NCBI GenBank assembly: GCA_028287765.1
Contig: JAQBPA010000025.1
Span: forward strand, 1-39,763
DNA: 39,763 nucleotides
Direction: 5' to 3'
From: Bacteriovoracaceae bacterium
GTDB taxonomy: Bacteria; Bdellovibrionota; UBA2394
This document shows positions 2,898-21,773 of the stretch, one piece after another (position 1 is the first letter of the stretch; each line of letters opens with the position of its first letter). A program made the position numbers and the translations under genes. A model generated the notes under the pieces. It made no database searches and was not told where the DNA came from. It was given only the letters and a program-made list of their open reading frames with translations.

Positions 2898-3197
2898 TCA
2901 CGCCTTTGATCTTTTTTGTCCGCGTCGTGTGCTTTGTTCAGCCAAATGAAATTCGATATATTTCTTTTGTTCACGCATCAAAAGATTGGTCAGCTCCCTG
3001 ACAGGAAGATTATAGAGAGTTATTAATATTCTAAGTTTATTCAAAGGCGGAGCACAAAGCCCGCGCTCAAAATTTGAAATAAATTGAGCACTAGTATAAC
3101 CAAGCGCCTTACTTACTTCCGCTTGACTGATATTCGCTTGTCGTCGCTTTGCTTTTAAATAATTTCCGAGTTCAACAAATAGGCTTTTCGTTTTCAT
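2898..3197 (-). CDS. XRE-family helix-turn-helix protein
   Basis: 99-aa ORF with HTH signature 'NISQAEVSKALGYTSAQFISNFERGLCAPPLNKL'; overlaps the upstream ORF by 4 nt. Confidence 0.85.
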   Translation of the reverse strand: MKTKSLFVELGNYLKAKRRQANISQAEVSKALGYTSAQFISNFERGLCAPPLNKLRILITLYNLPVRELTNLLMREQKKYIEFHLAEQSTRRGQKRSKA

Positions 3198-3892
3198 AAA
3201 ATTCGCTTTGCTTTTAATGATAAAAGGACTGCATCTGGAGCTCCACCCTCCCGATCTGTTCGAAACAGAGGGGAATGAACGCCCATCTCAATAGAAAAAG
3301 ACCTCTTCTCATCAGAAAACCTCTCCGTAAGTTCGTGAATGGGAATGTTTTCATAAGATTTGGTAGAGCTTCCACTGTTGAAAGATTTTTGTGTTTGTTC
3401 AAAAACTTTTTCCAATATTTTAGCATTTCGATAATACAAAGTTGGCCAATCAAAAACGAGTATGTCGTAGACCGAGTAACTACAAAGTTCAAAAAATCTG
3501 AGATTCCTAAATATTTGGATATGATCTCGATTATAGATTTCAATCACCTCGTCTTCTTTGATTTTATCGAAAACGTCATGGCAAGGTCTCAAATTCAAGT
3601 GACTGAGACAGGCCCAGGTTAATTTTCTGCTTTCGTTCATTTGAATCCGTTGAGCACCCGCTCGCCTTAAATGGGACAAATAAGAATCAAAGTTAAATAA
3701 GATTTTATTTTGCTTTTCGGCAGACATTTGCGCAAATTCCTGGATCGCACCAGGAGACTGCTTGGCGTTGATATTGATTTCATTTTTATACGCAAGCTCT
3801 TTGAACCACTCAACCTGCAAAATAAAGCGTGCAATGCGCGCGGATGAATAAATTTCGTTAGGTTTAAAATTTGCAAGAATTTCGTGTTCCAC
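3194..3892 (-). CDS. Hypothetical protein co-transcribed with XRE regulator
   Basis: 232-aa ORF; 4-nt overlap with the HTH gene; no family recognised. Confidence 0.7.
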   Translation of the reverse strand: MEHEILANFKPNEIYSSARIARFILQVEWFKELAYKNEININAKQSPGAIQEFAQMSAEKQNKILFNFDSYLSHLRRAGAQRIQMNESRKLTWACLSHLNLRPCHDVFDKIKEDEVIEIYNRDHIQIFRNLRFFELCSYSVYDILVFDWPTLYYRNAKILEKVFEQTQKSFNSGSSTKSYENIPIHELTERFSDEKRSFSIEMGVHSPLFRTDREGGAPDAVLLSLKAKRIL

Positions 3893-4038
3893 AGTTTTCC
3901 TTAAAGGAATATCTAGCGCAATTTTTTTAAATTGAACAGTGCGTTATAATCTTACCTAAAAACTAAATAAATTTGATTTACAACTGATTTTAGCTAACTC
4001 AAAATCTTATTGGGGATTCTGTTAGTTAGGAGGGGATA

Positions 4039-4737
4039 ATGGGGGAAATCAGTCATGATGCCTTAAATGGCGTCCAGTATAGGATTTTTGAGGGTCGGCG
4101 CTCGGCGAATGCCTATACCCAATCGCAAAATGCACTGTATCAGACCTGGAAGCTAGGCTGGGACAGCACCTTTCAGGAACTTAGAAGTGACTCCATTGCT
4201 CAATCTCCCGATTTTCTGCGCCAAACCTTGGTCGCTGGACTTTTTATTGGGGAACAAAAAGTCATCGGGCTCCAAGCTTATTCGTTTTTCAATGTACATC
4301 TAGAAGCTCATCTGGAGCATCCCTACTTTCGCACTTACCCTTCGGCCGTTCTCGACGCCTTAAAAAGCCGCGGTGCCCATCAGTTCATGACAATGGAATA
4401 TCTTTACGTGGATCCGAATTGGAGAAGGTCAATCATCGGAATCTCAATGGCAGATGTGATTTGCAGTCTAGGCCTAAAGATTTTCTCAAATTCCGCGAAT
4501 GATGCCGTTATTTCAATCACTCGAAATGAACGCAAGGTGAACCAAATGCTTTACGATAAAGGAGCCGAGTGCCTTGCCAAAGATCTTCAACTTCATAATG
4601 TAACCGTCGATATCATCGGATTTTTCAAAAACAAAATCTTAGAAACGTCTTCTGAAGAAGCCAACTTAGCTAAAAAACTTTGGGAAGAACGATTAGACAC
4701 AACATTACCTACAGAAAAAATAATTCGGGCAGCTTAA
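4039..4737 (+). CDS. Predicted GNAT-fold acyltransferase (N-acyl amino acid synthase/FeeM-like)
   Basis: 232-aa ORF with strong SD TAGGAGGGG just before ATG; 'MTMEYLYVDPNWRRSIIGISMADVICSLGLK' resembles the GNAT beta4/alpha3 CoA-binding segment; 'VISITRNERKVNQMLYDKGAE' resembles GNAT motif B. Assignment by eye. Confidence 0.6.
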   Translation: MGEISHDALNGVQYRIFEGRRSANAYTQSQNALYQTWKLGWDSTFQELRSDSIAQSPDFLRQTLVAGLFIGEQKVIGLQAYSFFNVHLEAHLEHPYFRTYPSAVLDALKSRGAHQFMTMEYLYVDPNWRRSIIGISMADVICSLGLKIFSNSANDAVISITRNERKVNQMLYDKGAECLAKDLQLHNVTVDIIGFFKNKILETSSEEANLAKKLWEERLDTTLPTEKIIRAA

Positions 4738-4762
4738 CTTAAATTTATTGGAGGGGATAACA

Positions 4763-5446
4763 ATGAATAAAGAAAATAATTCTACAGCTCTAAGACTCAC
4801 TTTTGAAAACGAAATGAAAGCCATTGAAACAATCTATGACTCCTTTCCGTGGTCCAACAAGATCGCTTATGGAAATTGGCTGGCTCAAACTTATTATTTT
4901 GTCTGCCATTCGACCCGACTTTTAGCGACCGCAGCAGCCAGATTTAATTTTCAGCAAAACAAACTGCATTTACGATGCATCGACCATATGAAAGAAGAGA
5001 GATCTCATGAAATTTTAGCCTCTCAAGATTTAAAGCATTTAGGTCTCAGCATTGATCAATTTCCAGAACTGCCAGTAACCTCTGCCTTTTATCAAACTCA
5101 ATATTTTTTAATTGAGCATTATAATCCACTCGTTCTCTTTGGTTATATTTTATGTCTCGAAGGTATTTCTTCTCGTCGCGGAAAAGAAGCTTGCAGACAA
5201 GTGGTTCAGAGTTTCGGTGACAAAGCGGCCGGGTTTTGGAAGCTTCATTCAGAAGAAGATGACGGTCATTTAGCTCAAGCTTTCAAACAAATTGATGCAA
5301 GTACTCCTTCGGAAGTTGAAGCGATCTCAAGAGGGCTCGTACAAAGCTCGGCCTTATATCGCCAACTCTTAATCGAAGTCGCTAGCGCAGCCGGTGTCCA
5401 AGTAGACACACGATCGCCAGCTCTTCCGAAAATTTCCGCTGCGTAA
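4763..5446 (+). CDS. Heme-oxygenase-like diiron (iron-containing redox enzyme) family protein
   Basis: ORF track starts at TTG 4748; likely start is ATG 4763 after GGAGGGG. All-helical sequence with metal-ligand-like 'HLRCIDHMKEERSHE' and 'FWKLHSEEDDGHLAQAF'. Confidence 0.65.
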   Translation: MNKENNSTALRLTFENEMKAIETIYDSFPWSNKIAYGNWLAQTYYFVCHSTRLLATAAARFNFQQNKLHLRCIDHMKEERSHEILASQDLKHLGLSIDQFPELPVTSAFYQTQYFLIEHYNPLVLFGYILCLEGISSRRGKEACRQVVQSFGDKAAGFWKLHSEEDDGHLAQAFKQIDASTPSEVEAISRGLVQSSALYRQLLIEVASAAGVQVDTRSPALPKISAA

Positions 5447-5459
5447 GAGTTAGTAAAAT

Positions 5460-6557
5460 TTACTTCGACTTCGACCACCAAAGAAGATTTTTTATTTTTC
5501 GGTCGAAGTCTTCCATCTTGAAAGGCTTTACAAGATACTCTGAAACGCGTTCTTCAACGGCTTCTGCAACTCGGTCTCGGGCATCTAACGCAGTGACCAT
5601 CATAAAGGGAATATCCTTCATCTGATGATTCTTTCTCAGTTTATGAAGTAACTCGAGACCCGAAAGTCGCGGAACTTTCCAGTCTGAAATAATGACATCG
5701 TGAGGAAGTTTTTCCGTAATTCCTTTAAGACATAGATTATAAGCATCTTGGCCGTTCGCTGCATAATCGATCTTAGAGAATCCAAGTTTTTCTAATCTTC
5801 GCATAATAATGCCAGCGATCTCCGGCTCATCTTCAACAATCAAAAATCGAAGGTCAGGACTAGGCGCTGTTCGCCGCATCTCTGGATCTTTCTGAACCAC
5901 ATCTGAAAAAGAACGGAGATCTTTAATAATAGTTGCTAAATCAGAAGCAGCGCTTTGCGCAGACGCCAATAGCTCCAAAGCCTTCACGGTATCCACTTCT
6001 TTTTCACTCATCGAAGTCTCAACGACGCTTAGTCGATCGGTTACCGCTGAAAGAGAGTCTTCTACGCCACCTGAAACATCCGAAGCCATTGTCGCAAGAG
6101 CACTCATTTTGAAAGCATGAAATCCACTTTGAAGAGCGTTCATTTTCGCCTGCGCAAAATGCACCTTTTCAATTCTAGCTCGAATAGATCGAGCCAACAT
6201 CTTGGCTCCAGGTTGTCCTTTAATCCAATAATCCTCTGCGCCCGCTCGGATCGACTGAAGAGCCAAATCTTCATCATCAGCACCGTTGATGACAATACTT
6301 GGTATGCTCTCGACTTTCGCATTGATTTTACTAAGCGTGTAGACTCCCCCACTATCTGGAAGAGACAAATTCACAAGAATTAAATCAAATGTCTGCGTTT
6401 CTAATTTGGCAAAAGCCTCCGAAAGAAGTTTTGCATTTTCAATTTCAAATCGAACTAAAGAATAGGCGTTAAGAGTATCTATAATTTCTTTAACTTCCTT
6501 TATGTCACTCTCAACTAAAAGGATTTTTATTTTCTGAATTTCCTCGCTCGATTCCAT
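5460..6557 (-). CDS. Double-receiver response regulator with a central degenerate DHp-like region
   Basis: N-terminal REC-like fold ('LILVNLSLPDSGG'), middle 'FKMSALATMASDVSGGVEDSLSAVTDRL', C-terminal canonical REC ('FLIVEDEPEIAGI', 'DVIISDWKVPRLSGLELL', 'YLVKPF'). Confidence 0.88.
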   Translation of the reverse strand: MESSEEIQKIKILLVESDIKEVKEIIDTLNAYSLVRFEIENAKLLSEAFAKLETQTFDLILVNLSLPDSGGVYTLSKINAKVESIPSIVINGADDEDLALQSIRAGAEDYWIKGQPGAKMLARSIRARIEKVHFAQAKMNALQSGFHAFKMSALATMASDVSGGVEDSLSAVTDRLSVVETSMSEKEVDTVKALELLASAQSAASDLATIIKDLRSFSDVVQKDPEMRRTAPSPDLRFLIVEDEPEIAGIIMRRLEKLGFSKIDYAANGQDAYNLCLKGITEKLPHDVIISDWKVPRLSGLELLHKLRKNHQMKDIPFMMVTALDARDRVAEAVEERVSEYLVKPFKMEDFDRKIKNLLWWSKSK

Positions 6558-6567
6558 TTTATCACCT

Positions 6568-7908
6568 CTAAGCAGCCACGACCTTGTTTTGACGTTTGGG
6601 AAGAGAAATTACAAATTTTGTGTGACTCGAACTTGTATCAAGCTTCAGAAACCCACTATGTTTTTTGATGATTTCTTTTGAAATACTTAAGCCTAGGCCC
6701 GTACCTTTTTGAACGTCCTTCGTTGAGAAAAATGGCTCTAAAATTTTATCTTTAATTTTATCCGGAATACCATGTCCACTGTCCGTGACAGAAAATTCGA
6801 AATTCACTTCCCTATCTATAGTCTGGATTCTAATCCATTTGCTCGGAAGACCTTCAACTGCATCGACCGCATTGATTAGCAAATTTAAAAGGACTTGGGT
6901 AATTTCTGAGGCGTGACATTCAATCAATGCCTCCGTTTTTGTTTCTTCAATGACCTGAACTTCTGATTGCTTAAATTTACCCTGACAAAGTGCTAGAGCA
7001 TTCTGAATCATTTCCCTGGTCGAAATATTTTGAAACAGATCTCCCGAGATATTTGACTGCAAAACTCCGAGACCTTTTATAATATTCGCTATCCGCACGC
7101 TCGACATGCCAACCGCCTCCAGAGTTTGATTTATTTCTGAATTCCCTTTCGAAAAATCTCGAAGTTCCTCAACTTTTCCCATGATGATCGCCAAAGTATT
7201 ATTAATTTCATGAGCAACGCCGCCAGTCATCTCCCCGAGCGAAGCCATCTTTGAAATATAGGTATGTCGGAGAAGCGCCTGCTCTAAGGCACCTCGAATC
7301 CTTCGTTGTTCAGTCACATCTTTCAAAAAACAGACTTTGTAAGACGTGTCACTCCCGGAAACACTTCTTGTATGAAACTCAGCAAAAATCGTATCACCAT
7401 CTTTTTTTCGCCAAGAAAACTCTTCGGGAATATCATTGACGTCTTGATCACCCGTCAATTTCAGAAGGAGGGGGCCTGAGAACTCTTGAGAATGCAAATC
7501 ACGAATTTGTACACTTTCAAGTTCTGATTTTGTACATTGAAAGAAAGTGCAAGCGGCAGGATTCGCAAAAAGAATTTTATTCGTTTTATTTTCCGTTATA
7601 AGAATTCCACATGGAGAACTCTCAAATAAAATTTGATATTTTACTTTAATATTATTTAATTCATCGGACTGATCATTTCTCGAATCTTTTTCGAGAGGTT
7701 TTTTAACGGGATCGGCAACTTGACCTTCTGATCGCTTAAGTTCATCGATTCGCGCTAAAAGCTCCTCAATTCTTCTTTGTTGAATTTGACCTACACTCTT
7801 CGAATCTCTCTTTACCCGTCGTAAACGAATAATCATAATTGCCTGAAACAAGAACGCGCCAAAACAAATAAGTATTATAAATAATAAAATTGGAACTGAC
7901 CCTTCCAT
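6568..7908 (-). CDS. PAS sensor histidine kinase with one N-terminal TM segment
   Basis: 446 aa; N-terminal hydrophobic segment; PAS 'YQILFESSPCGILITENKTNKILFANPAA'; DHp 'SLGEMTGGVAHEINNTLAII'; HATPase '[40 protein letters not shown]'. Confidence 0.93.
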   Translation of the reverse strand: MEGSVPILLFIILICFGAFLFQAIMIIRLRRVKRDSKSVGQIQQRRIEELLARIDELKRSEGQVADPVKKPLEKDSRNDQSDELNNIKVKYQILFESSPCGILITENKTNKILFANPAACTFFQCTKSELESVQIRDLHSQEFSGPLLLKLTGDQDVNDIPEEFSWRKKDGDTIFAEFHTRSVSGSDTSYKVCFLKDVTEQRRIRGALEQALLRHTYISKMASLGEMTGGVAHEINNTLAIIMGKVEELRDFSKGNSEINQTLEAVGMSSVRIANIIKGLGVLQSNISGDLFQNISTREMIQNALALCQGKFKQSEVQVIEETKTEALIECHASEITQVLLNLLINAVDAVEGLPSKWIRIQTIDREVNFEFSVTDSGHGIPDKIKDKILEPFFSTKDVQKGTGLGLSISKEIIKKHSGFLKLDTSSSHTKFVISLPKRQNKVVAA

Positions 7909-7911
7909 CTG

Positions 7912-7969
7912 AGTAAATCATAAACATAATTTGTTTATAAAATGAAGAAGTATAATATTATGATTTACT
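7912..7969. repeat. 12-bp inverted repeat between the two histidine kinase genes
   Basis: AGTAAATCATAA (7912-7923) / TTATGATTTACT (7958-7969). Confidence 0.65.
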
Positions 7970-9315
7970 TAACGCGCAGAGCGGCTGGGCATTCGAGTTG
8001 CACAAGGCAAGATCGCCACAAAGCGAGTAAATTCAGAAAGTGTATCCAAATAAAATTTTCCACCATGACTCTCAGCGATGCCTTTACTGACACTTAAGCC
8101 AAGACCCGTGCCTTTTCCAACGTCCTTGGTTGTAAAGAAGGGTTGCATAATCTTTTCCCGAATGTTCTCAGGAATGCCAGGGCCGTTATCAGTGACTCCA
8201 AGCGTGACGTGGCCGGCCTCCTCCTGAACTTCGATTTTCACAACAGCACCAGGACGTCCATCAACAGCATCGAACGAATTGTTTAAAAGATTTAACAATA
8301 GCTGACTGATCTGCACGTCTCGACAAAATAATTTCAAATCATTAGGTATATCGTTAACAATTAAATTTACGCCGTGAGCTTTAAAACGATTTTGGCAAAA
8401 ATCCAAAGTCTCGAGTACTATCTTTTTTACGGAACTTAAATCGAAGGGATCATTTTTACCTTCGCGTGCAAATGACTTTAGGCCAGAAATAATTTTAGTA
8501 ATTCGGTCGGTAGTTGTATCTATTTTTTCGGCAAATAAAAGTATCCCTCGCTGATCAAGCTTGTTCGACTCAGCTAACTCTCGTATATATTGAACGTTCC
8601 CCCGGAGAATCATCAGTGGATTACTGATTTCGTGAGAAATTCCTGCCGCCATTTCTCCTAAGGCCGCCATTTTAGTTGAATGAGTCATTTTGGACTGGGC
8701 ATCTATTAATTCCTTAAAAATTTGATCTTTTTCAAATCGAAGGGAGATCGAGTCAGTGACGTATCTACCCATCCGCCTCATCAGGCCCGAAAACAAAATC
8801 ACATAAAGAAGAAGCATAGTAGCCATTTCGTACTGAAGTCGTCCGCCCTCAAAACTTAAACGAGCTGCGAACGGCAAAACCGAAGAAAGGAGAAATAACT
8901 GAACGGCTTTATTTGAACTGCTATAGGCAACCGCAGCTCCGGCTGTTGTTCCTGCAAGGAGAAAAGCAAAAAAAGCCTGATAAGCAATGAGTCCAGGAGG
9001 CAGAAAAAATCCTGCAACACCCCAGGTGCACCCTGAAAGAAATGATCCAAATAAAAAGGCATTTTCCCACAAAGTGGAATTAAAAGAATGCTCCTTTTCT
9101 TTATTATGCCTGGTGAACCATCGCTGAAGTTCCATTCTCGCGATATAAATCAGTAATACACAGGATCCCCAGATAAGTAATGGAGTTACAGAAACAAAAT
9201 CCTTTGAAATAAAAATGAAAATACCTGCATTGAGAAGGCCCGCCGTCTGAGTCACTCGACTCTGCTTAAAAAGCAGCTCAATGCGAACCTGCTCAACTGC
9301 TGGATTTAATGACAC
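7969..9315 (-). CDS. Multi-pass membrane sensor histidine kinase
   Basis: 448 aa, GTG start; about six hydrophobic segments in the first 190 aa; DHp '[20 protein letters not shown]'; HATPase '[40 protein letters not shown]'. Confidence 0.92.
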
Positions 9316-9802: not shown

Positions 9803-11059
9803 ATGCGGCTGCAGCGAATACTCATTCTTTTTTCAACACCCCTTTTTTTATATTCAATTGCCTTTTCTGCTACACGCGTATCACGACAAAAAATCCCGGA
9901 GTTTTCTGAATCCAGCATGAAAAAGTATCAAAGAATAATGAACCCGCGCAGGCGAACGTGCACAGGCAAATTGATCGGGCTTGCAAAAACACATTTAAAC
10001 CATCATTCAGATAGAACATTCTTTACCCATAAACATTTTATCCCAGCTCTATTTGAAGATCCAAATCCTGATTATTTGATTCCCAATTTCCGTTCAATTA
10101 ATCCAAAAGAACGCGCGAGCATTTTCAGTGATCTAAATATCGCAGAAAGAAAATGGAGAGGGGAAGTTTCAAAAACAGGTCTGCCGCCGCATTTAAGTTT
10201 GGTTCATAGCTATTTCGATGCTGGCATCCATGGCCTCATCATGAGTCATTGGGTTGATGATCCAGCCGTCCGACGCGTAATCATCTTTCTATGTGGTTAT
10301 TTGTTGCATTGGATTGATGATTTAGCTGATGGGCCCTATGCAAAAAAAATAAAGACAATGCCTTTGCCTAATTTTATGTTCCAACCCTTTCAAAACTCAC
10401 TCACGCAATTGCATCCGAAATTGGGAAACCTTTGGCAAGGAGCAATGGAGTACGCCATTCAAGAGGTTCCAGAATTCAAAAACAGACAATATGACTTCGA
10501 GAGCGAAGCTAAAAGAATGTTTTTGAACGGAGTCATGTTTAGTTCGTCAGATAAGGAGATACAACAAATATTCATTTATTATCATCAAGCTTTCTTCCAT
10601 CTCCTTTGGAATGAAAGTACTCATGTGGGAAGGCTTGTGGGAAGCATAACTCCAGGATCTATCGCCAATACAAGCAAGGTGCTTTCACTTGCTTGGCGAG
10701 GAATAAAGCAAGAACCCGATGCAAATTTAGTTCAACTTACGGATCTCTTTATTGCTCCGGGTGTACTCGTTCATGACGACGCGACTGAAAAAGTAATCGG
10801 AGAAGATCAACTGACTGATCAATTTTCAATAATCGATCTGCAGACAGACTTAAGAAAAACTTTTGTCACCATTTTGAAAAATGATGATCACTTTTTAAAA
10901 TTATTTCTAGAACCTATTCCTTTGTTTATCGACGCGTCTGAAGACGTTCTCAGAAAAAGCGGTTGGCTGCCCATTTATCTGGAATTTTTAACCGACCCGA
11001 GAGTAAAAAAGTTACTTCCGGACGGGTGGCTGGATAACTATATTTATGTTTATGAATAA
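9803..11059 (+). CDS. Hypothetical exported protein with an Asp-rich 'DDLAD' motif
   Basis: 418-aa ORF with N-terminal signal-like 'ILILFSTPLFLYSIAFSA'; 'FLCGYLLHWIDDLADG'; true start uncertain. Confidence 0.7.
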   Translation: MRLQRILILFSTPLFLYSIAFSATRVSRQKIPEFSESSMKKYQRIMNPRRRTCTGKLIGLAKTHLNHHSDRTFFTHKHFIPALFEDPNPDYLIPNFRSINPKERASIFSDLNIAERKWRGEVSKTGLPPHLSLVHSYFDAGIHGLIMSHWVDDPAVRRVIIFLCGYLLHWIDDLADGPYAKKIKTMPLPNFMFQPFQNSLTQLHPKLGNLWQGAMEYAIQEVPEFKNRQYDFESEAKRMFLNGVMFSSSDKEIQQIFIYYHQAFFHLLWNESTHVGRLVGSITPGSIANTSKVLSLAWRGIKQEPDANLVQLTDLFIAPGVLVHDDATEKVIGEDQLTDQFSIIDLQTDLRKTFVTILKNDDHFLKLFLEPIPLFIDASEDVLRKSGWLPIYLEFLTDPRVKKLLPDGWLDNYIYVYE

Positions 11060-11069
11060 TTCAAACTGA

Positions 11070-12230
11070 TTAAGGTCTTTTTGTAAGATCGATATCGAAG
11101 GGCCCCGCTCCCAACCTTGACAGAAGACTTCGTGCAGTTCTTTCCCATTGATCGAATTCCAGCTGCATAACCGTAGGCCTACCTGAACCATTACTTTGCT
11201 TGCCGTCACTTGCCGGAAAATCAAGATAGTGAAGACCTAGCCTTTCTGCAATTTCGATTCGGTTGAGCGCCGTTTCTGCAAAATATTTTACAAGTGAATG
11301 ATAAAAAGGAACTTCTTGAGAAGTTCTAGAATGATTCATTAAATCGTAAAAATGTTCGGCTTCAATCAACAGTTCTTTCGTGTTTAGTCGACGAGAAAAA
11401 TTTTGAGTTAAGCGGGTCAGTTCTAAAAGATGATCCAGCTTGCTTTGAATGACGTCGGCTTGATTGTCACCTATCTCGGAATCAGATAACTCTGCATTTC
11501 GAGGTAAGATTCGATGAGTTTGAATAAGTCCTTCGTAAAATTCCTTAACCGATTCGGCATAGATAGTTCTGAATTTCTTTTTTTGCATCCGACCCTCGTG
11601 GGAAAATCCGGGTTCTATTGCTCGATCGAAAAGAACATCGATATTATTTTTTATTTCCAGGGCTTCACCCTGAAGACGTTCCAAAATTCTTTGCTCTTCC
11701 AGAACAAATCGTCTGACCTTTTCATCAGTCGAATCGGCAAGACTCTCTTTAGAATCTTTATAAAGTCGAAGCATTGCTTCGTTTAGCAACTCAATACGTG
11801 CATCGAGTCTGGCGATGAAATCTAAGGGTGGGTCTTCAGACAATAGCTTTGAGAGGAGCCGACCGACGCTAAGCCATTCTTCAAAAATTTTACGATGCTC
11901 TTCGAGTTGAGGAATGATATCGGAGCTGAAATCATGCCCAAACGAAAATCCAGTCAAAAGAACGGGTGTTGATGTTTTTGAAAGTTGCTCAATACGATAT
12001 CGAACCAGATCCCGTTCACGCTTTACTGGTAAATTTTGTTGATATGATGGAGTGGGTCGAGAAGGATATCCGAGACGTTCAAACATTCTTCGACAAAAGC
12101 TTTTTTTGGCAGCAGGCAATTCAGAATCCGTCCAAGCACTGGCGGCACTACTAACTCTTAAGCTAAGAGTTAGTAGAAAAATAATGGGAAAGAAGAAGTA
12201 ATTAATCAAACGGGATTCTCTCAATTTCAT
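11070..12230 (-). CDS. Hypothetical exported protein
   Basis: ORF track starts at 12266; internal ATG at 12230 ('MKLRESRLINYFFFPIIFLLTLSLRVSSAASA') gives a clean signal peptide. Convergent with 9803-11059. Confidence 0.7.
   Translation of the reverse strand: MKLRESRLINYFFFPIIFLLTLSLRVSSAASAWTDSELPAAKKSFCRRMFERLGYPSRPTPSYQQNLPVKRERDLVRYRIEQLSKTSTPVLLTGFSFGHDFSSDIIPQLEEHRKIFEEWLSVGRLLSKLLSEDPPLDFIARLDARIELLNEAMLRLYKDSKESLADSTDEKVRRFVLEEQRILERLQGEALEIKNNIDVLFDRAIEPGFSHEGRMQKKKFRTIYAESVKEFYEGLIQTHRILPRNAELSDSEIGDNQADVIQSKLDHLLELTRLTQNFSRRLNTKELLIEAEHFYDLMNHSRTSQEVPFYHSLVKYFAETALNRIEIAERLGLHYLDFPASDGKQSNGSGRPTVMQLEFDQWERTARSLLSRLGAGPFDIDLTKRP
12148..12176. repeat. Perfect 13-bp-arm hairpin within signal-peptide coding region
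   Basis: CTACTAACTCTTA agc TAAGAGTTAGTAG. Confidence 0.8.
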
Positions 12231-12673: not shown

Positions 12674-14050
12674 TTAAGCGAGTCCATACTCTTTGCGCTT
12701 TCGCCAGAGAGTCACAGTCGTGATCCCAAGAATGTGTGCAGCTCTTTCCTGATTGCTTTCCGTTGCCAAGACTTTTTCAATATAATCGCGCTCAAGACGC
12801 TCTAAGGTGACGAGCTCTCCCGAAATTTTCTCTGGCTTATGACGAACCGTCTCCGGAAGATCCGAAATATCGATATCTTTACCATTTGATAAGAGGACGA
12901 TCCGTTCGATCACATTACTCAGCTCACGAATGTTACCCGGCCATGAATAATCGAGAAGAACTTTTAAAACGTCGTCCGGAATTTTAACCTGAGTGGCACT
13001 ATTGCTTGAGAATTTAGTCAGAAACTTTTGAATCAAAATGGGGATATCTTCCTTCCGAAAGCGAAGAGGAACTAAAGAGCACTCAAGAACATTTAAACGA
13101 TAATACAGATCTTCCCTAAAGGTGCCCTCCTTCACCGCCTTTTCTAAATTCTTATTGGTCGCCCCAATGATTCTTGTATCCACATAAATAGATTTGTTGC
13201 TTCCTACTCTTTCGATCACCTTTTCTTGAAGGAACCTCAAAAGCTTCAGTTGGCCATTTAAAGAAATATCTCCAATCTCATCGAGAAAGAGCGTTCCGTG
13301 ATTCGCGAGTTCAAATTTTCCGACTTTATCTTGGAAAGCTCCCGTAAAGGAGCCTTTAACGTGACCAAAAATTTCTGACTCAAAAAGGTTCTCAGCTAAG
13401 CTTGTGCAATTCACGGTGACAAAGGGATGCGAATGTCTCTTTGATTTTTCATGAATAGCTCTCGCGAGTTCACTTTTTCCCGTTCCGCTTTCTCCAATCA
13501 GAAGCACCGTTGAGTCTGTAGGAGATACTTTTTGAACGAATTCCTCGAGCCGGTGACTTGCAATGGAAGTGAATCCCGTAAAATATTCATGAACGCTTCC
13601 GCCCTGATCGCGAAGTTTTTGATTTTCTCGCCGCAGAGAAACAACGAGTCGAACTTTTTTAAGAAGATGTTCGAGTTGAGCAGTCGTAAAGGGCTTTGGA
13701 AGGTAATCAAACGCTCCCTCCTTTGTCACTTGGACTGCGTTTTCAATGGAGGCAAAAGCTGTAATCACGACGACAACAGGAGGTATTTGAAAATCTTTTG
13801 TAGCTCGAATGATATCCACGCCTGTTTTTTCGCCCATTCGAAAGTCCGTCAAAATAAGATCAAAATCATCGGATGTGAGGTGCTGGAGTGCCATGGCTAC
13901 GCTTGAAGCTGGCGTGACTTTGCAGTCGAGAAGTTTGAGGCTAAGACTCAGTGTTCTTAAGATATTTGGATCGTCATCAACCAATAAAATTTTAAGGGGG
14001 GTATCGCTCACAAGCACCTCTCTATATATATGTCTTCTGTCACGTATCAA
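12674..14050 (-). CDS. NtrC-family sigma54-dependent response regulator (REC-AAA+-Fis HTH), candidate kdp regulator
   Basis: REC 'ILLVDDDPNIL...LILTDFRMGEKTG...YLPKPF'; Walker A 'GESGTGKSELARAI'; sigma54 contact loop 'GSFTGAF'; Walker B 'GTLFLDEIGDIS'; C-terminal Fis-type HTH 'NQERAAHILGITTVTLWRKRKEYGL'. Confidence 0.95.
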   Translation of the reverse strand: MIRDRRHIYREVLVSDTPLKILLVDDDPNILRTLSLSLKLLDCKVTPASSVAMALQHLTSDDFDLILTDFRMGEKTGVDIIRATKDFQIPPVVVVITAFASIENAVQVTKEGAFDYLPKPFTTAQLEHLLKKVRLVVSLRRENQKLRDQGGSVHEYFTGFTSIASHRLEEFVQKVSPTDSTVLLIGESGTGKSELARAIHEKSKRHSHPFVTVNCTSLAENLFESEIFGHVKGSFTGAFQDKVGKFELANHGTLFLDEIGDISLNGQLKLLRFLQEKVIERVGSNKSIYVDTRIIGATNKNLEKAVKEGTFREDLYYRLNVLECSLVPLRFRKEDIPILIQKFLTKFSSNSATQVKIPDDVLKVLLDYSWPGNIRELSNVIERIVLLSNGKDIDISDLPETVRHKPEKISGELVTLERLERDYIEKVLATESNQERAAHILGITTVTLWRKRKEYGLA

Positions 14051-15825
14051 CCGTGCCCTGATATGAGGGGTAAGGTAATTCGAAAAATCGAGCCATGAGG
14101 TTCGCGATAGATATATTGAATCTCGCCATGGTGGGCTTCTACGACTTCTTTAGCAATGGTGAGACCTAATCCCAAAAATCCCGGCTTTTGCTCGCCTTCA
14201 CCTTTGGCCTGAAAGTAAGGCTCGAAAATCTTATCTCGAATTTCTAGCGGCACGCCAGGACCCTCATCCCAAATTTCTATATGAACCTTGTTGCTGTCCG
14301 TCGACAAAAGAACCTTGATGATTCCTAGAGAAGGAGAAACACGTACGGCGTTTCCCAGCAGATTTGAAATGGCCCAAGGAAATTTAATAAGATCTACAGA
14401 TGCCCAAATTTCGCCCGAGCCTTCTTGAATATATTCGAGTCTTACATTTCTTTCTTTCGAAAGAACATGAAAGGGTCTCATCCATTCTTTCAATTTCTCG
14501 TTGAGTGGAGTGAGCTCCAACTTTAATCTTAAAGAACTTAAATCAACAGAACCCACCTGAATGAACTCATTCGCTACAATTCGAATTCTGGCGACATCAT
14601 CATGAATGGTATTGATGAGCATCTGTTCTTCATCACTCCACTGACCTTTTCTAGAGAGCAAAAGTTCGCTTGCTGTTCCAAGAGATTGAAGAGGGGTTTT
14701 GAGTTCATGCGATAAAATTCCCAAAAAATCTGCCTTCGATTTTTCTCGTTGAATATTTTCCGTAATATCGTGAAGAAGATAAAGCATCATTCCAAGGGGT
14801 TCATCGTTTTTTCCTAAAATGTTTCGACACCGACCGCTAAAAATTCTTTTTTTGCCGTCGAAAGCAAGCTCGACGGATTGATCCGGTGATAGATCCCGAT
14901 TCAAAAACTGCCGCAGCCTCAAATAATTATCTCCGAGTGTCGAAAGGTCAGCCCAGAAGTGATAAAGAACATCTTCCTTTTTGAGTCCAAGCAATTCCAA
15001 CATTCCTTCATTGCACTGGACAACAGTCTGCCGATTGTCGATGACGATAATCCCATCATCCACAGACTCTAAAACGGTTTCAAGCTTTTGGCCCTGAACA
15101 GAAAGTTCTTCGAGATTGAGCTTTTGCAGATCGCAAAGTCTGTCCCAGAGTCTTCCCATTTCGTGATTTAAAACTTTCATTTCAAAGTTCGTGGGTACAG
15201 GAAGTTTCAATTGAGTCCCGAGTCGAGGCTTTCGGCGAAGGGCTTCTGCGATATCTTTAATAGGCCGAGAAATCTTTACGGCCAAACCGTCGGCAAGATA
15301 AATCGCCCAAAGAAGAGAAATCATAAAAAGGACGATACTGAAAATGAGAATTCTCTTACTCGCTAAAACACTTTTCTCTGCAAGTTTGAACATCCCTTTT
15401 TCGTTGAGCTCAATCAGACGATCCAAGTTTTGTCGCATTTCTATAAAATCACGGCCCGAAGTGGCCTCTGGGTTTGTTTTTGAGCGGTCCCAAAGATTTC
15501 TAATTTTTGAAGCGAGCCCGCCTTCTCCTGGCTCCGTGATATTATGTTCTTCAAACGAAATCATATCTTCAAAAAGCTTTTTCCATTCGTTTGGATTTTT
15601 CTCCGGATGGCGTGCTGGCAATGAAAGTGCATTCCATGATTCTTTCATCTTCATGGCTGCAGAAATAGAGTCATAATTAGAATGGATAATCTGCGGAGTG
15701 ACGCCGCTTGAGAAGTACACGGCGAGCATCATGAAAATGCCAACGCCCACATAGAGCGAAACAAGGACGAAGAATTGTCGAAGAATTTTTTGTCTAAGTG
15801 GAGGTAAGTGCGCTTCTTCTCTCAT
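14047..15825 (-). CDS. Membrane PAS sensor histidine kinase, co-transcribed with KdpD-like sensor and NtrC-type RR
   Basis: 592 aa; two TM segments flanking a periplasmic region; PAS; DHp 'FLGILSHELKTPLQSL'; HATPase 'IWDEGPGVPLEIRDKIFEPYF' and 'FLGLGLTIAKEVVEAHHG'; 4-nt overlaps on both sides. Confidence 0.93.
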   Translation of the reverse strand: MREEAHLPPLRQKILRQFFVLVSLYVGVGIFMMLAVYFSSGVTPQIIHSNYDSISAAMKMKESWNALSLPARHPEKNPNEWKKLFEDMISFEEHNITEPGEGGLASKIRNLWDRSKTNPEATSGRDFIEMRQNLDRLIELNEKGMFKLAEKSVLASKRILIFSIVLFMISLLWAIYLADGLAVKISRPIKDIAEALRRKPRLGTQLKLPVPTNFEMKVLNHEMGRLWDRLCDLQKLNLEELSVQGQKLETVLESVDDGIIVIDNRQTVVQCNEGMLELLGLKKEDVLYHFWADLSTLGDNYLRLRQFLNRDLSPDQSVELAFDGKKRIFSGRCRNILGKNDEPLGMMLYLLHDITENIQREKSKADFLGILSHELKTPLQSLGTASELLLSRKGQWSDEEQMLINTIHDDVARIRIVANEFIQVGSVDLSSLRLKLELTPLNEKLKEWMRPFHVLSKERNVRLEYIQEGSGEIWASVDLIKFPWAISNLLGNAVRVSPSLGIIKVLLSTDSNKVHIEIWDEGPGVPLEIRDKIFEPYFQAKGEGEQKPGFLGLGLTIAKEVVEAHHGEIQYIYREPHGSIFRITLPLISGHG

Positions 15826-16949
15826 CTCTCCTCTCCTTCGAGACTGCTTAAAATATGCACATCCACTCCAACGGAGTCGTGAATGAAACTAAGAAGAACA
15901 GAACCTCGAAACCTTTCTCTGAGAGGAGAGAGTCTGGATTTGCCAAAAACTGCATGTCTCACATTGTGCTCGAGAGCGAAGTTACAAAGAAGACTTGCGA
16001 TATCGTCTCCATGGAGCGTGATCACCTCAGCATCGAGACGCTTTGCAAGAGTAAGATTATTCTGAAGCTTCCGCTGAAGTCCGGCGTCAATATTCGTCGG
16101 GTTCTCTTCTGAACTCTGCACGTAGACCACATAGCATTGACTTGAAAGCTGCATGGCCATCCGGCAGCCTTTTCGAATCAGAACTTCGGCACTGGTGGGA
16201 TCTGAACTCAAACAAACCATGACCGTCTCATGCGTAAGAAGAGCATTTCTTTCAGAAAGAATGAGTTGTTCGTCAATACGACGAATCTGATCTCCGGCAG
16301 CTTCTTTGAGTGCCGTCTCACGTAAAACTGAGAGGTTGGAAGGAGAAAAAAAGTTTGTCATCGCGCGTTCAGCTTGTTCTTTGGAGTAAATTTTTCCCAT
16401 TCTGAGTCGCTCGCGAAGATCCTCAATCGTAAGGTCGACATTCACAATTTGATCGGCCCTTTGCAAAATCGAATCGGGCAAACGTTCGCGTATTTCCACT
16501 CCCGTAATCGCGCTGATTTTATCTGCGATCGATTCAAGATGCTGAACGTTTAACGTTGAAATGACATTGATGCGATGATCTAAAATCTCGAGCACATCTT
16601 CGTAACGCTTTTCGTGTTTAGAATGGGGTGCGTTGGTATGCGCCAGTTCATCGATCAGAACGATTTGAGGCTTCCTATCGAGAATGGCGTTCACATCCAT
16701 TTCATAAAAAGTTGTCTGGTTAATTTCGTAAGCACGGCGAGAAATGGATTCTAGATCGCCAACTAGACCTGCAGTATCAGATCGGTCGTGAGGCTCCAAG
16801 TATCCAATGACAACATCAAATCCCCGCGCTTTTAATCGAAGAGCTTCTTGAAGCATGGCATAAGTTTTTCCGACGCCCGCCGCATATCCTAGGTAAATCT
16901 TTAAAGATCCCTTCTTCCGTCGCTCTAAAATTTCATCAAATTGAGGCAT
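15822..16949 (-). CDS. kdpD: KdpD N-terminal sensor (KdpD domain + USP domain) lacking TM and kinase domains
   Basis: 375 aa; 'GSLKIYLGYAAGVGKTYAMLQEALRLKARGFDVVIGYLEPHDR' and 'VLIDELAHTNAPHSKHEKRYEDVLEIL' are KdpD signatures; ends after the USP-like region. Confidence 0.93.
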   Translation of the reverse strand: MPQFDEILERRKKGSLKIYLGYAAGVGKTYAMLQEALRLKARGFDVVIGYLEPHDRSDTAGLVGDLESISRRAYEINQTTFYEMDVNAILDRKPQIVLIDELAHTNAPHSKHEKRYEDVLEILDHRINVISTLNVQHLESIADKISAITGVEIRERLPDSILQRADQIVNVDLTIEDLRERLRMGKIYSKEQAERAMTNFFSPSNLSVLRETALKEAAGDQIRRIDEQLILSERNALLTHETVMVCLSSDPTSAEVLIRKGCRMAMQLSSQCYVVYVQSSEENPTNIDAGLQRKLQNNLTLAKRLDAEVITLHGDDIASLLCNFALEHNVRHAVFGKSRLSPLRERFRGSVLLSFIHDSVGVDVHILSSLEGEER

Positions 16950-17032
16950 CTAATAGGTAAATCCTATCCGTGATCAGAGAAGATTCCAATCCGCAAAGTA
17001 TCTCCAAAAGGGATGCTTTCTGACCAAAGAGC

Positions 17033-17067
17033 ATTACAAAATGTAATGGAATATTTCATTTTGTAAT
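17033..17067. promoter_or_regulatory. Paired 15-bp palindromes (candidate enhancer/UAS) upstream of kdp
   Basis: ATTACAAAATGTAAT (17033-17047) ggaat ATTTCATTTTGTAAT (17053-17067); same 15-5-15 architecture at 24319 and 25880. Confidence 0.75.
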
Positions 17068-17117
17068 TCAATTTTTGCTCCAGGAGGCCTGAATGGCACG
17101 TAAATCAGAAATTTTCT

Positions 17118-17133
17118 TGGCACGTTCATTGCA
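17118..17133 (+). promoter_or_regulatory. Sigma54 (-24/-12) promoter for kdp operon
   Basis: TGGCACGTTCATTGCA matches TGGCACG-N4-TTGCW exactly; GG at 17119-17120, GC at 17131-17132; 51 bp downstream of the paired palindrome. Confidence 0.88.
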
Positions 17134-17204
17134 AACCATTGGAGTGAGAAAGAAATGAGCACGGAAAAAATAAAAAATGAACGGTCGAATTCGAAAGGAT
17201 CACC

Positions 17205-17297
17205 ATGGTCGCAGCAGACTATTTAAATTTAGGCTTTCTTCTTGTGTGTTTTGGTTTGGGAATTGCTTTTGTGTTTGGTTGTGAACGTTTGAAATAG
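17205..17297 (+). CDS. 30-aa single-TM microprotein preceding kdpF
   Basis: MVAADYLNLGFLLVCFGLGIAFVFGCERLK; preceded by AAAGGA; below the ORF-track length cutoff. Confidence 0.7.
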   Translation: MVAADYLNLGFLLVCFGLGIAFVFGCERLK

Positions 17298-17309
17298 GAG
17301 TGTCATCTT

Positions 17310-17390
17310 ATGGATTTTGTATTGCTAGGAGTTTCCGTCGGAGTCTTTATCTATCTGCTTTACGCACTTATTTGTCCGGAGAAGTTTTAA
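17310..17390 (+). CDS. kdpF: KdpF small subunit
   Basis: MDFVLLGVSVGVFIYLLYALICPEKF; SD AGGAG; one TM and typical 'YALI.PEKF' end directly before kdpA. Confidence 0.9.
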   Translation: MDFVLLGVSVGVFIYLLYALICPEKF

Positions 17391-17391
17391 T

Positions 17392-19101
17392 ATGACAACG
17401 AGAGATACTATTCAACTTGGCCTCTATTTGATCGTCTTGATCTTGGCCACTAAGCCACTAGCACTTCATCTTGAAAAGGTTTTTGAAGGTTCAAAGAATC
17501 TTCTGTCTCCTATTTTTGGTCCGATTGAAAAATTAATTTATCGCCTACTCGGTGTGAACCCGGATGAAGATCAACATTGGACGAAGTACTCGATTGATCT
17601 GCTTGTTTTTAGCGGAGTTACTTGTGGATTTACTTATCTACTTTTGAGAGCTCAAAAATTTCTTCCGCTCAATCCACAAGGGTTCGCCGGAATGACTCCA
17701 GACCTTGCCTACAATACTGCCATGAGTTTTACGACGAATACTAATTGGCAGTCGTATGGGGGCGAAAGCACGCTCAGCTATCTTTCTCAAATGCTGGCAC
17801 TTACTTTTCATAATTTTATTTCTGCAGCGGTGGGGATTGCGGTTGCGGTTGCTCTCATTCGAGGCATTTCTAAAAAAGAAGGAAAAGGCATCGGAAATTT
17901 TTGGGCGGATATGATTCGCTGCAATTTATATGTTCTTCTTCCGATCTGCATTGTGTACGCGCTCTTCTTAATTTCACAGGGAGTGATTCAAAATTTTCAT
18001 GCTTACGATATCGCGACAACGCTTGAAGGAGTAAAGCAAACCATCGCTCAAGGCCCAGTTGCCTCCCAAGTAGCGATCAAGATGCTTGGAACAAACGGTG
18101 GAGGTTTTTTTAATGCCAATGCGGCTCATCCCTATGAAAATCCCACGGCTCTCTCCAACTTTTTTCAAATGCTTTCGATCTTTTTGATTCCGAGTGCTCT
18201 TGTTTACTTACTCGGAAGACGAGTTCGAAATAAAAAACATGGTTGGGCTGTTTGGGCAGCGATGGCCATTATTTTCGTGGTGGGCGTACTGATAACAGCT
18301 CACTACGAATATCAAGGAAATCCTAAACTCGCTGAACTCGGCTGCTCTTCGCCAGCAAATATGGAAGGAAAGGAAGCTCGCTTTGGAATCTTTAACTCCG
18401 CCTTCTTTGCGACGATAACAACCGACGCCTCTTGTGGCGCAGTGAATGCCATGCACGACAGTTTCACTCCACTCGGAGGAGCTGTTCCACTTTCGAATAT
18501 CATGTTGGGTGAAATTATTTTTGGAGGCGTGGGATCAGGTCTGTACGGAATGCTCATGTATATTCTGCTCACCGTTTTTATTGCCGGACTTATGATCGGA
18601 CGGACTCCGGAATACGTGGGCAAGAAAATTGAAGGTCGGGAAATTAAGTATGTCATGTTTGCGATGATTGTGATGGCGCTCTCGATTTTGGGATTCACCG
18701 CATGGGGTGCGCTCGATCCGCGTGGACTTGCAGGTCTCAATAATCCGGCTGGACACGGATTTTCAGAAATTCTCTACGCGTATACTTCTGGCACTGGAAA
18801 TAACGGAAGTGCGTTTGCCGGCCTCAGTGCAAACACTCCGTTTTGGAATTGGACCCTCGCTTTTGCAATGTTCTTCGGTCGATTTTTTATGATGATCCCA
18901 ATGCTTGCCGTTGCAGGCTCGCTCGCGAAAAAGAAAATTCATCCCGGCGGTGAGGGTACGTTTCGAGTGGATAATTCACTTTTTGTGGGACTACTTATCG
19001 GAGTGATTTTACTGGTCGGAGCACTCACGTTCTTCCCGGCGCTTTCACTCGGTCCGATTGCAGAACACTTCGATATGCTCCAAGGACATCTTTTTAAGTA
19101 A
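17392..19101 (+). CDS. kdpA: K+-transporting ATPase subunit A
   Basis: 569 aa; filter-like segments '[14 protein letters not shown]' and '[21 protein letters not shown]'; multi-pass; next to kdpB and kdpC. Confidence 0.98.
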
Positions 19102-19120
19102 GAAAAGGAATAAGTTCATT

Positions 19121-21145
19121 ATGACATCTTCTATTTGGAATCCAGAACTCATGAAAACGGCCCTCCGAGATTCATTTATTAAATTGAATCCGAAAGTCTT
19201 GATCAAAAATCCCGTGATGTTTGTGGTGGAAATTGGAAGTGTTCTCACCACAATTGCATTCTTTCACGACATTTTTAGCGGAGGCGAGAGTAATGCGCTT
19301 TTTACGGGACAAATTGCTCTTTGGCTTTGGTTCACTGTTCTCTTTGCAAATTTTGCAGAAGCCATGGCCGAAGGCAGAGGAAAAGCCCAAGCCGAAAATC
19401 TCAAAAAAGCACGAACTGAAACCAAAGCTTATCGACGATCCAAAAGTGGAAAAATGGAAACAGTTAATTCTGTCGTTCTGAGAAAAGGAGATATCGTCGT
19501 TGTAGAAGCGGGCCAATTTATTCCTGCCGATGGCACCGTTATCGAGGGTGTGGCGTCGATTGATGAATCGGCAATTACTGGCGAGTCTGCGCCTGTCATT
19601 CGCGAAGCGGGTGGAGATAGAAGTGCCGTCACCGGAGGAACCAAAGTGCTTTCAGATAAAATCGTGATCGAAATCACGGCAAATCCTGGAGAAGCTTTTT
19701 TGGATCGAATGATCGCGCTCGTCGAAGGCGCTGTTCGACAACGAACTCCCAATGAAATCGCTCTTAATATTCTGCTCGCAGGCCTCACGATTGTATTCTT
19801 ACTTGCAACGGTGACCTTAAAACCATTCGCAATCTATATGCATACATCGATTTCGCTGCCGATTCTGATTTCGCTGCTTGTCTGTTTAATTCCGACGACC
19901 ATTGGCGCACTGCTCTCGGCGATTGGTATCGCTGGAATGGATCGGCTCGTCCAAAGAAATGTACTCGCCATGTCTGGCCGTGCAGTCGAAGCTGCTGGAG
20001 ATATAGATGTTCTCCTTCTCGATAAAACGGGAACCATCACGATCGGAAATCGAATGGCGTGTGAATTTATTCCCGCTCCGGGAGTAAATATTCAGGAGCT
20101 CATGGAAATGGCGCTCTTAGCATCAGCAGCAGATTTGACTCCCGAAGGAAGATCCATCGTCACGCTTGCCGAAAAAAAAGGTATTCGATCTTCCACTCCA
20201 CAGAGCGGAGTGATTGTTCCTTTCTCTGCGGAAACTCGAATGAGCGGTCTCGATTACGACCAAGGATCGATTCGAAAAGGAGCTTTTGATTCTATTCAAA
20301 CCTGGGTGAAAACTCATTTCAAAGGGACCGTGTCTCCTGAAGTCTCACTGGATGTAAAAAGTATTGCGTTAAAAGGAGGAACACCTCTCGTTGTGGCAAA
20401 AAACGCTAAAATTTTAGGCGTTATTCATTTGAAAGACGTTGTAAAGCCAGGCATCAAAGATCGCTTTGAAAGAATTCGCGCGATGGGAATTAAGACAGTG
20501 ATGATCACTGGCGATAATCGGCTGACCGCAGCTGCGATCGCAGCTGAAGCCGGCGTCGACGATTTTTTGGCCGAGGTGAAACCTGAAGATAAACTGCGCT
20601 TAATTAAAAGTTACCAGGCAGAAGGACGAATGGTCGGAATGTCTGGCGATGGAACCAATGATGCCCCTGCCCTCGCGCAGTCCGACGTAGGACTTGTCAT
20701 GAATACTGGCACTCAGGCTGCTCGCGAAGCAGGAAATATGATCGATCTTGATTCCGATCCTACGAAGATTATCGAAATTGTTGAAATCGGAAAACAGCTG
20801 CTGATCACTCGGGGCTCTCTCACGACCTTCAGCATTGCCAATGATGTCGCAAAATATTTTGCAATTATTCCTGCCATTTTTGCGAGTTCGATTCCTGCTC
20901 TCGGTGCTCTCAATATCATGGCGCTCCGTAATCCTCAGAGCGCGATCCTTTCGGCCGTGATCTTTAACGCCATCATCATTATCGCGCTCATTCCGCTCTC
21001 GCTTCGAGGCGTCGTCTACCGACCGCAGTCGCCAAGCAAAATTTTGGAAAGGAATGTTTTTATTTACGGAATTGGTGGAATCATCATTCCCTTTATTGGA
21101 ATTAAAATAATCGACGTTGTGGTCTCGGCATTGGGGCTCGCGTGA
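19121..21145 (+). CDS. kdpB: K+-transporting ATPase subunit B
   Basis: P-type ATPase motifs '[11 protein letters not shown]', '[13 protein letters not shown]', '[12 protein letters not shown]'; ATG 19121 with upstream AAGGAA (ORF track start 19058 overlaps kdpA). Confidence 0.98.
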
Positions 21146-21185
21146 AAGCTGAAGGCACGACACTCGCCTATATAAGGAGTCATTT

Positions 21186-21773
21186 ATGAAAGTACTTTAT
21201 CAATCTTGTTTAGCTACCTTAATTTTAGCTGTCATTCTCTGCGGAATTTACCCCGCTTTGGTAACAGTCGCTGGAAAACTTTTGTTCGCTGAGAAAGCAA
21301 ACGGAGGACTCATCAGCAATCACGAAGGAAACGTTATTGGCGCAGAGATTATCGGCCAGTCGTTTTCGAAGCCCATTTATTTTCACGGTCGTCCATCTGC
21401 AGCCGGCGACAAGGGATACGATGCTGCCAATTCTTCGGGAACAAATCTTGGACCTACGAATCAAAAATTAATTGATGGGATCTCAAAAAATATTGACGAT
21501 CTTTTAAAAGATAATCCGAGTCTAAAAAAGGGGCAGATTCCCACAGATCTCGTGACCGCTTCAGCGAGCGGACTGGACCCCCATATTTCTCCAGAAGCCG
21601 CTTACGTACAGGTAGAGCGAGTAGCCTCAGCTCGCGGCGTGAGTGTTGATGAAATTCGAAATCTCGCAAAAGAACATATTGAAGGCCCAGCGTGGGGACT
21701 CTTCGGCGAACCTGTTGTGAATGTGCTTCTCCTTAATTTGGATTTGGATCGCCGCTATCCTCCTAAAGGTTAA
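21186..21773 (+). CDS. kdpC: K+-transporting ATPase subunit C
   Basis: 195 aa; single N-terminal TM; 'GRPSAAGDKGYDAANSSGTNLGPTNQKL' and 'SASGLDPHISPEAAYVQVERVA'. Confidence 0.98.
   Translation: MKVLYQSCLATLILAVILCGIYPALVTVAGKLLFAEKANGGLISNHEGNVIGAEIIGQSFSKPIYFHGRPSAAGDKGYDAANSSGTNLGPTNQKLIDGISKNIDDLLKDNPSLKKGQIPTDLVTASASGLDPHISPEAAYVQVERVASARGVSVDEIRNLAKEHIEGPAWGLFGEPVVNVLLLNLDLDRRYPPKG

Follow-up and report, generated by a model that had tools for sequence, protein, structure and literature searches.

Gene layout of the locus

The window is the whole stretch of DNA analysed here, 39,763 nucleotides long, and comes from a draft genome (2.84 Mb, 76% complete). Near its beginning lie two short adjacent genes, one for a GNAT-like enzyme and one for a heme-oxygenase-like diiron enzyme (HDO), with regulator and sensor genes on either side (Table 1). 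Bdellovibrionota is the one phylum indicated by relatives of the window's genes: a 'Deltaproteobacteria' MAG is the nearest that has a name, and a Bdellovibrio plasmid carries another, farther removed.

Table 1. Features at and around the gene pair, with positions in the window
Feature	Position	Strand	Details
XRE-family helix-turn-helix regulator	2898-3197	-	99 aa; Pfam HTH_31 3e-9, HTH_3 1e-8
X234 protein	3194-3892	-	232 aa; helical N-terminus and probable C-terminal PAS-like domain (~residues 110-230)
Shine-Dalgarno leader GGAGGGGATAA, GNAT gene	4029-4039	+	
Putative GNAT/FeeM-like acyltransferase gene	4039-4737	+	ATG start, 232 aa
C-terminal Arg-Ala-Ala tail of GNAT	4726-4734	+	ssrA-like degron candidate
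Shine-Dalgarno leader GGAGGGGATAA, HDO gene	4750-4760	+	
HDO gene	4763-5446	+	227 aa from ATG; ORF open from TTG 4748
C-terminal Ser-Ala-Ala tail of HDO	5435-5443	+	
Double-receiver response regulator, convergent	5460-6557	-	Pfam Response_reg 4e-33, 2 stretches
PAS-HisKA-HATPase histidine kinase	6568-7908	-	ends VVAA
Membrane histidine kinase	7969-9315	-	

Both reading frames of the pair are present, 25 nt apart, as the original prediction had it, and the near-identical leaders that it noticed are real: the 11-mer GGAGGGGATAA is identical before both genes and occurs nowhere else in exact form in the window (4029 and 4750 only), where allowing one mismatch gives three sites against 0.46 expected. 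The element is a strong Shine-Dalgarno sequence with an extension common to both genes. In the nearest relative (L033) the cores GGAGGGG and GGAGGG are kept and the whole 11-mer is not.

Upstream, X234 and the XRE gene are divergent from the pair, and the XRE start overlaps the end of the X234 gene by 4 nt. A search for operators between the divergent genes returned short inverted repeats only, and promoters there were not in excess over shuffles. Downstream, the convergent sensor kinases to which the prediction had drawn attention do exist, together with the double-receiver response regulator (5460-9315 in all); however, neither histidine kinase adjoins the pair in the nearest relative. There, only the double-receiver protein has an orthologue at the same place (10629-11519), and a DEAD-box helicase gene follows. 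A gene cluster shared by L033 and L107 was first read as kinases; its L033 member turned out to be that helicase, of equal length.

Farther along the window, a 418-aa protein (9803-11059, + strand) has no Pfam or NCBIfam match. A Kdp potassium-transport locus, read from translations only, occupies 12674-21773; its histidine kinase (14047-15825) and a KdpD-like N-terminal protein (15822-16949) are encoded by separate genes, and the response regulator (12674-14050) resembles an NtrC-type sigma-54 activator.

The probable diiron oxidase and its acyltransferase-like partner

The HDO protein matches PF14518 in Pfam (E = 5e-12), and a profile of 55 homologues recovered 3DDE (4e-19), the acetylenase MboA (9YPI, 4e-7) and, weakly, UndA and BesC from the PDB; a heme-oxygenase-like helical fold is predicted from these sequence-level matches to solved HDO-fold structures and to the Pfam family. 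Eight columns of the alignment are invariant (E79, H82, D89, G127, E133, H162, D166 and H169), and six of these—E79, H82, E133, H162, D166 and H169, three histidines and three carboxylates—are the predicted metal ligands. They correspond, in the same pattern, to the iron ligands of MboA (E86, H89, E143, H172, D176 and H181; PMC13185094), and the definition of 3H/3C HDOs is that of PMC13108848. All six are present in the window protein, and 90 of 92 homologues carry the full set, which is incomplete only in one diverged paralogue and in a copy with a frameshift. Because the ligands are kept in all but two of the 92 homologues, the window protein is very likely an active 3H/3C HDO, and the HDO identity given by the original prediction, which had made missing metal ligands its test, is supported. 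With UndA, BesC, SznF, MboA and CADD it shares all six ligands, arranged as in MboA (E-x2-H, E, H-x3-D, H), an HDO-type profile and the format of a stand-alone enzyme of ~230 aa; in contrast to them it belongs to a distinct subfamily, whose Bdellovibrionota members are mostly ~27-45% identical to the window protein, and its partner is a GNAT-like enzyme instead of an NRPS or amino-acid pathway.

For the upstream gene, the label GNAT-like is favoured by fold and profile comparisons, but Pfam and NCBIfam lend it no support: scans of the window protein and 55 members returned no significant family, TIGR03694 and PF00765 matched neither the protein nor anything else in the window's genome, and the profile met only chance matches among PDB sequences. 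The AF2 models of this protein and of X234 were built on two-sequence alignments (window and L033), and for the GNAT the mean pLDDT was 47. Submitted to Foldseek, this pLDDT-47 model matched mostly GNATs in the PDB, at a best E of 0.03; AtaT and KacT were the best, and arylalkylamine N-acetyltransferase and GCN5 were also among the matches. In hhalign comparisons the GNAT profile scored 65% (E = 6e-5, 98 columns) against exosort_acyl/FeeM-like proteins and 19.5% against generic GNATs of the same genome, with unrelated controls below 1%; the likeness to the exosort_acyl/FeeM profile is weak and covers the N-terminal half. Conserved positions (W37, F59, R61, P126, R129, R162 and G175) are spread in a way that would fit an acyltransferase core.

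We are fairly confident that the window protein is a GNAT-fold acyltransferase, and it probably stands closer to FeeM-like enzymes than to N-acetyltransferases; fold and profile comparisons together favour a divergent FeeM-like GNAT. With FeeM-type N-acyl amino acid synthases and exosort_acyl proteins it shares, besides the N-terminal profile match, an oxidative tailoring partner; however, it falls below every curated cut-off, with no detectable membership of TIGR03694 or PF00765, and because the curated models do not recognise it we do not name it a member of the FeeM, exosort_acyl or AHL synthase families. As an observation apart, about half of the sampled genomes of the phylum encode a protein of ~290 aa that has, in its N-terminal part, a sub-threshold match to exosort_acyl (L176-L182 and others); this is a second FeeM-like acyltransferase family, not positionally tied to the pair.

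A conserved cassette with variable oxidases and putative sensors

We surveyed 291 Bdellovibrionota genomes with a match threshold of >70 bits, which found the GNAT in 98 and the HDO in 95. The two keep company: 97 of 122 GNAT matches have an HDO gene no more than 3 kb away (median gap 99 bp, 84 genomes), so that the co-conservation on which the original prediction had staked itself holds. The GNAT gene comes first in 83 pairs and the HDO gene in 10; in four they are on opposite strands. Fourteen HDO genes seemed to be orphans; a profile found the GNAT beside 10 of them, three are near contig ends, and one (L086) is a true exception. At L086 the HDO gene sits beside a methyltransferase and a kinase, and no GNAT was found; at L087 it has the same two neighbours, and the contig ends upstream of it. 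In one genome (L133) GNAT and HDO are fused as a single 458-aa ORF.

The GNAT-HDO pair is a conserved unit across the phylum. Distances between HDO sequences covary with those between GNAT sequences across loci (Mantel r = 0.41, against a maximum of 0.28 in 999 permutations), and X234 distances likewise covary with both; shared ancestry accounts for part of the GNAT/HDO covariation. The cassette is patchy (about one third of genomes), multi-copy and once plasmid-borne: a genome can hold up to three copies, those that adjoin different sensors within a genome share 19-38% identity, and a complete GNAT-HDO-X234 module is found at the end of a 161-kb record, plasmid pBdHM1 of Bdellovibrio sp. HM001 (L163 707-2393). 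The annotated start of the pBdHM1 GNAT is too late; the frame runs upstream to an ATG.

Clustering the neighbourhoods of 100 loci, with sensors counted over 90 loci, brought out the pair's regular companions. X234, a protein of ~234 aa, is encoded within two genes of the pair at 64 of the 90 loci, and it accounts for 68 of the 357 genes within that distance versus one of the 690 at a distance of five or more (p = 8e-33). XRE-type genes follow (43/357 versus 3/690, p = 7e-18), although many loci lack one, and histidine kinases are also enriched, more weakly than either (p = 2e-5). Twenty-one loci have a kinase without X234 and five have neither, and a PAS-like protein or kinase is found within two genes at 85 of the 90; kinases mostly substitute for X234. 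The idea that kinases would co-occur with the enzymes is right for those 21 loci, in other lineages, but the usual putative sensor is X234, often with XRE, which had gone unmentioned. By parsimony the sensor label has switched at least six times on the HDO tree and at least ten times on the GNAT tree. At 11 kinase loci the kinase has 4-6 predicted N-terminal transmembrane segments, a pattern that is only suggestive because farther kinases also have such segments, less often.

X234 itself belongs to no significant family in Pfam/NCBIfam scans of 40 members, its profile gave only chance matches among PDB sequences, and a search of viral contigs gave no match. However, hhalign placed its C-terminal 100 residues against PAS domains of the same genome at 66%, over the whole PAS domain (unrelated controls <1%), and the AF2 model (pLDDT 60, two-sequence alignment) has a PAS-like order of elements, with Foldseek matches that are not significant. 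X234 probably has a PAS fold, and we infer that it is a sensor or receptor. Its orientation to the pair varies—convergent, divergent or co-directional—and because it does, the link between them is not mere operon inheritance.

Where the GNAT occurs without HDO, X234 is usually retained and another oxidative enzyme stands in the place of HDO. Most often this is a fatty-acid desaturase (L099, L100, L101 (twice), L208, L209, L213, L216, L222 and L224); elsewhere it is a FAD_binding_4 oxidase (L210 and L220), at L221 fused to the GNAT in one ORF. A flavin monooxygenase-like protein is present at L224 and an acyl-CoA dehydrogenase at L209. Desaturases are frequent in genomes of the phylum, at a few per genome; the 10 found close to lone GNATs far exceed random placement. 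In genus g41 (L102, L218, L219 and L223) the GNAT ends in -AA or -SA, and at most of these loci a gene for a glutathione-S-transferase-like protein comes after it; oxidase and X234 are missing from this context, as at L102, L219 and L223, and it is possibly another branch of the GNAT family.

Outside the phylum, relatives of the HDO occur in an operon of T_hemolysin, AMP-binding, HDO and SDR genes (Vibrio, Citrobacter, Pantoea and Variovorax), and a Streptomyces T_hemolysin locus has a TauD-type dioxygenase instead. The HDO of this operon (for example on Vibrio parahaemolyticus pLH214-1) is homologous to that of the window (hhalign 100%) and is likewise encoded beside a second small enzyme; the operon differs in carrying a ligase and an SDR and in having no PAS-like protein annotated beside it. 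Homology between the GNAT and T_hemolysin was considered and rejected, as hhalign detects none; the parallel is therefore one of gene content only and no proof of common chemistry. On proteobacterial plasmids the order T_hemolysin, AMP-binding ligase, HDO, SDR is widespread and was seen at L164 3817-7351, L165 3829-7363, L166, L167 and L168, often with an added TPR or small protein, response regulator or kinase; at L169 and L172 the listed genes include a longer AMP-binding gene and none for a separate HDO. The annotation 'thermostable hemolysin' may be misleading, and the enzyme may be biosynthetic.

C-terminal tails and the proposed pathway

The enzymes of the cassette share a C-terminal tail. 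GNATs end in Ala in 66% of cases and in Ala-Ala in 30%, HDOs in 66% and 49%, against 5% and 1% in a background of 1060 neighbouring genes; module desaturases end in Ala in six of nine cases and X234 in two of 79. The motif is [KR][KR][AVI]A, with V/I-A and A-S variants, and its information is confined mostly to the last four positions, after an unconserved linker; a shorter form, [KR][AV]A, is common to GNAT, HDO and module desaturases. After clustering at 40% identity the signal is retained in 36 of 58 GNAT clusters and seven of 15 HDO clusters. Eight of 12 desaturases of the HDO-less loci carry the tail, the FAD oxidases end in KFAA and KVAA, and the monooxygenase ends in KKAA. Desaturases elsewhere are mostly without it; one that ends in EKAA (L229) sits in a module locus (L224), and since it was counted as a control, the p = 0.09 for module desaturases versus those elsewhere understates the contrast. 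With GNAT, HDO, desaturase, FAD oxidase and monooxygenase all tailed, unrelated families of one pathway share a C-terminus. Proteins outside the module can have the tail too: histidine kinases not next to the pair show a mild excess (Ala-Ala in 5/40 versus 11/1060 in the background); it may mark other regulated proteins in the phylum.

Judged by its sequence, the tail is likeliest a ClpXP-type degron. ClpX recognises the ssrA tag chiefly by its terminal Ala-Ala carboxylate (PMC7652416), the tmRNA tag of the window's own genome is DESNFALAA, and diiron aldehyde decarbonylases offer a precedent in their conserved Ala-rich C-terminal degron (PMC7325246). As with ssrA-type degrons, small-Ala or Ala-Ala ends occur on several proteins of one pathway; unlike them, the cassette tails are encoded in the enzymes themselves and have basic residues at -3 and -4. 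Those basic residues, together with the V/I-A and A-S variants, make the motif broader than strict Ala-Ala and would suit a signal for docking or localisation by which the enzymes of the pathway assemble on a single partner, with no degron involved. We regard such docking as possible but doubtful, given the ClpX determinant, the ALAA end of the genome's own tmRNA tag and the decarbonylase precedent.

On balance, we lean towards the pair being the core enzymes of a cassette, spread across the phylum, for an oxidised acyl small molecule with a linked sensor, perhaps under regulated proteolysis. The GNAT/FeeM-like enzyme would take a fatty acyl group off ACP or CoA and attach it to an amine, for example an amino acid, and the diiron HDO—or a desaturase or flavin oxidase elsewhere—would oxidise the product by desaturation, decarboxylation or hydroxylation. 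HDO precedents on fatty acids and amino acids include decarboxylation by UndA, desaturation by MboA and N-oxygenation by SznF (PMC13108848, PMC13185094). The adjoining sensor (X234, alone or with XRE, or else a histidine kinase) may perceive the product or control the pathway, in an arrangement like that of luxI/luxR or of synthase/kinase pairs, and ClpXP-type proteolysis through the [KR][AV]A tails would limit enzyme levels. The acyl-amine chemistry, the signalling role and the degradation are all conditional in this scheme; the product is probably a signal, and it is possible that the sensor works upstream of the pathway and does not receive the product. The comparison with luxI/luxR, luxM/luxN and cqsA/cqsS extends to the link, in varying orientation, between an acyltransferase-like enzyme and a sensor and, in the kinase-linked version of the cassette, to the predicted transmembrane segments, up to six in number; in contrast to those systems, the cassette adds an oxidase as a core partner, and its putative receptor is PAS-like with XRE.

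Other roles for the same enzymes deserve weight. The product may instead be a secreted bioactive, a factor in predation or competition that the cell itself does not perceive, with the PAS-like protein or kinase sensing redox, oxygen or prey. Some PAS domains do sense redox or oxygen, and O2 is used by the partner enzymes; the divergence of copies that adjoin different sensors within a genome (19-38% identity) suits product diversification, and the tails would fit a product that is costly or harmful and needs tight control. We nevertheless think this unlikely, as no resistance or export gene recurs among the identified neighbourhood clusters and a tight sensor link in variable orientation is typical of synthase/receptor pairs.

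The replacement of HDO by fatty-acid desaturases, and a GNAT profile that points toward long-chain acyltransferase relatives, would also be in keeping with remodelling of membrane lipids, in which an OlsB-like N-acyltransferase forms an aminolipid and HDO or desaturase edits its acyl chain when the PAS protein or kinase senses envelope stress. However, no OlsA-like second acyltransferase recurs nearby, and a patchy, multi-copy and once plasmid-borne cassette is unlike a housekeeping lipid pathway; we hold this to be very unlikely. It is extremely improbable that the GNAT is an AtaT/KacT-like toxin with XRE as antitoxin and HDO as accessory, as the top Foldseek matches of a weak model and a nearby XRE gene might suggest: the co-transcribed antitoxin of AtaT/KacT systems is absent, XRE overlaps X234 and not the GNAT, lies on the strand opposite the GNAT and is missing from many loci, and the fusions are with oxidases, whose replacement would be senseless for a toxin-antitoxin pair.

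Returning to the oxidised acyl product with a linked sensor, a bolder and quite tentative version would have these loci serve, across the phylum, as one family of chemical-communication cassettes, in which a new acyltransferase subfamily makes the precursor, interchangeable oxidases diversify it into distinct signals, an adjoining PAS-like/XRE or kinase receptor reads each one, and a common degron ends synthesis. The full-text literature, which covers few subscription journals, yielded no description of the module, X234 or the common tail, no signal-synthase system of such a kind in Bdellovibrionota and nothing relevant that pairs Bdellovibrio with these enzymes. The parts are assigned to known folds; the module itself is apparently undescribed.

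Bdellovibrionota include predatory bacteria, and a conserved, mobile, multi-copy synthase-oxidase-sensor cassette is a target in the search for signals or bioactive lipids among them. The tail offers a marker for finding more enzymes of the pathway, and unrelated oxidases swapped around one acyltransferase and one tail would show how a small-molecule pathway diversifies.
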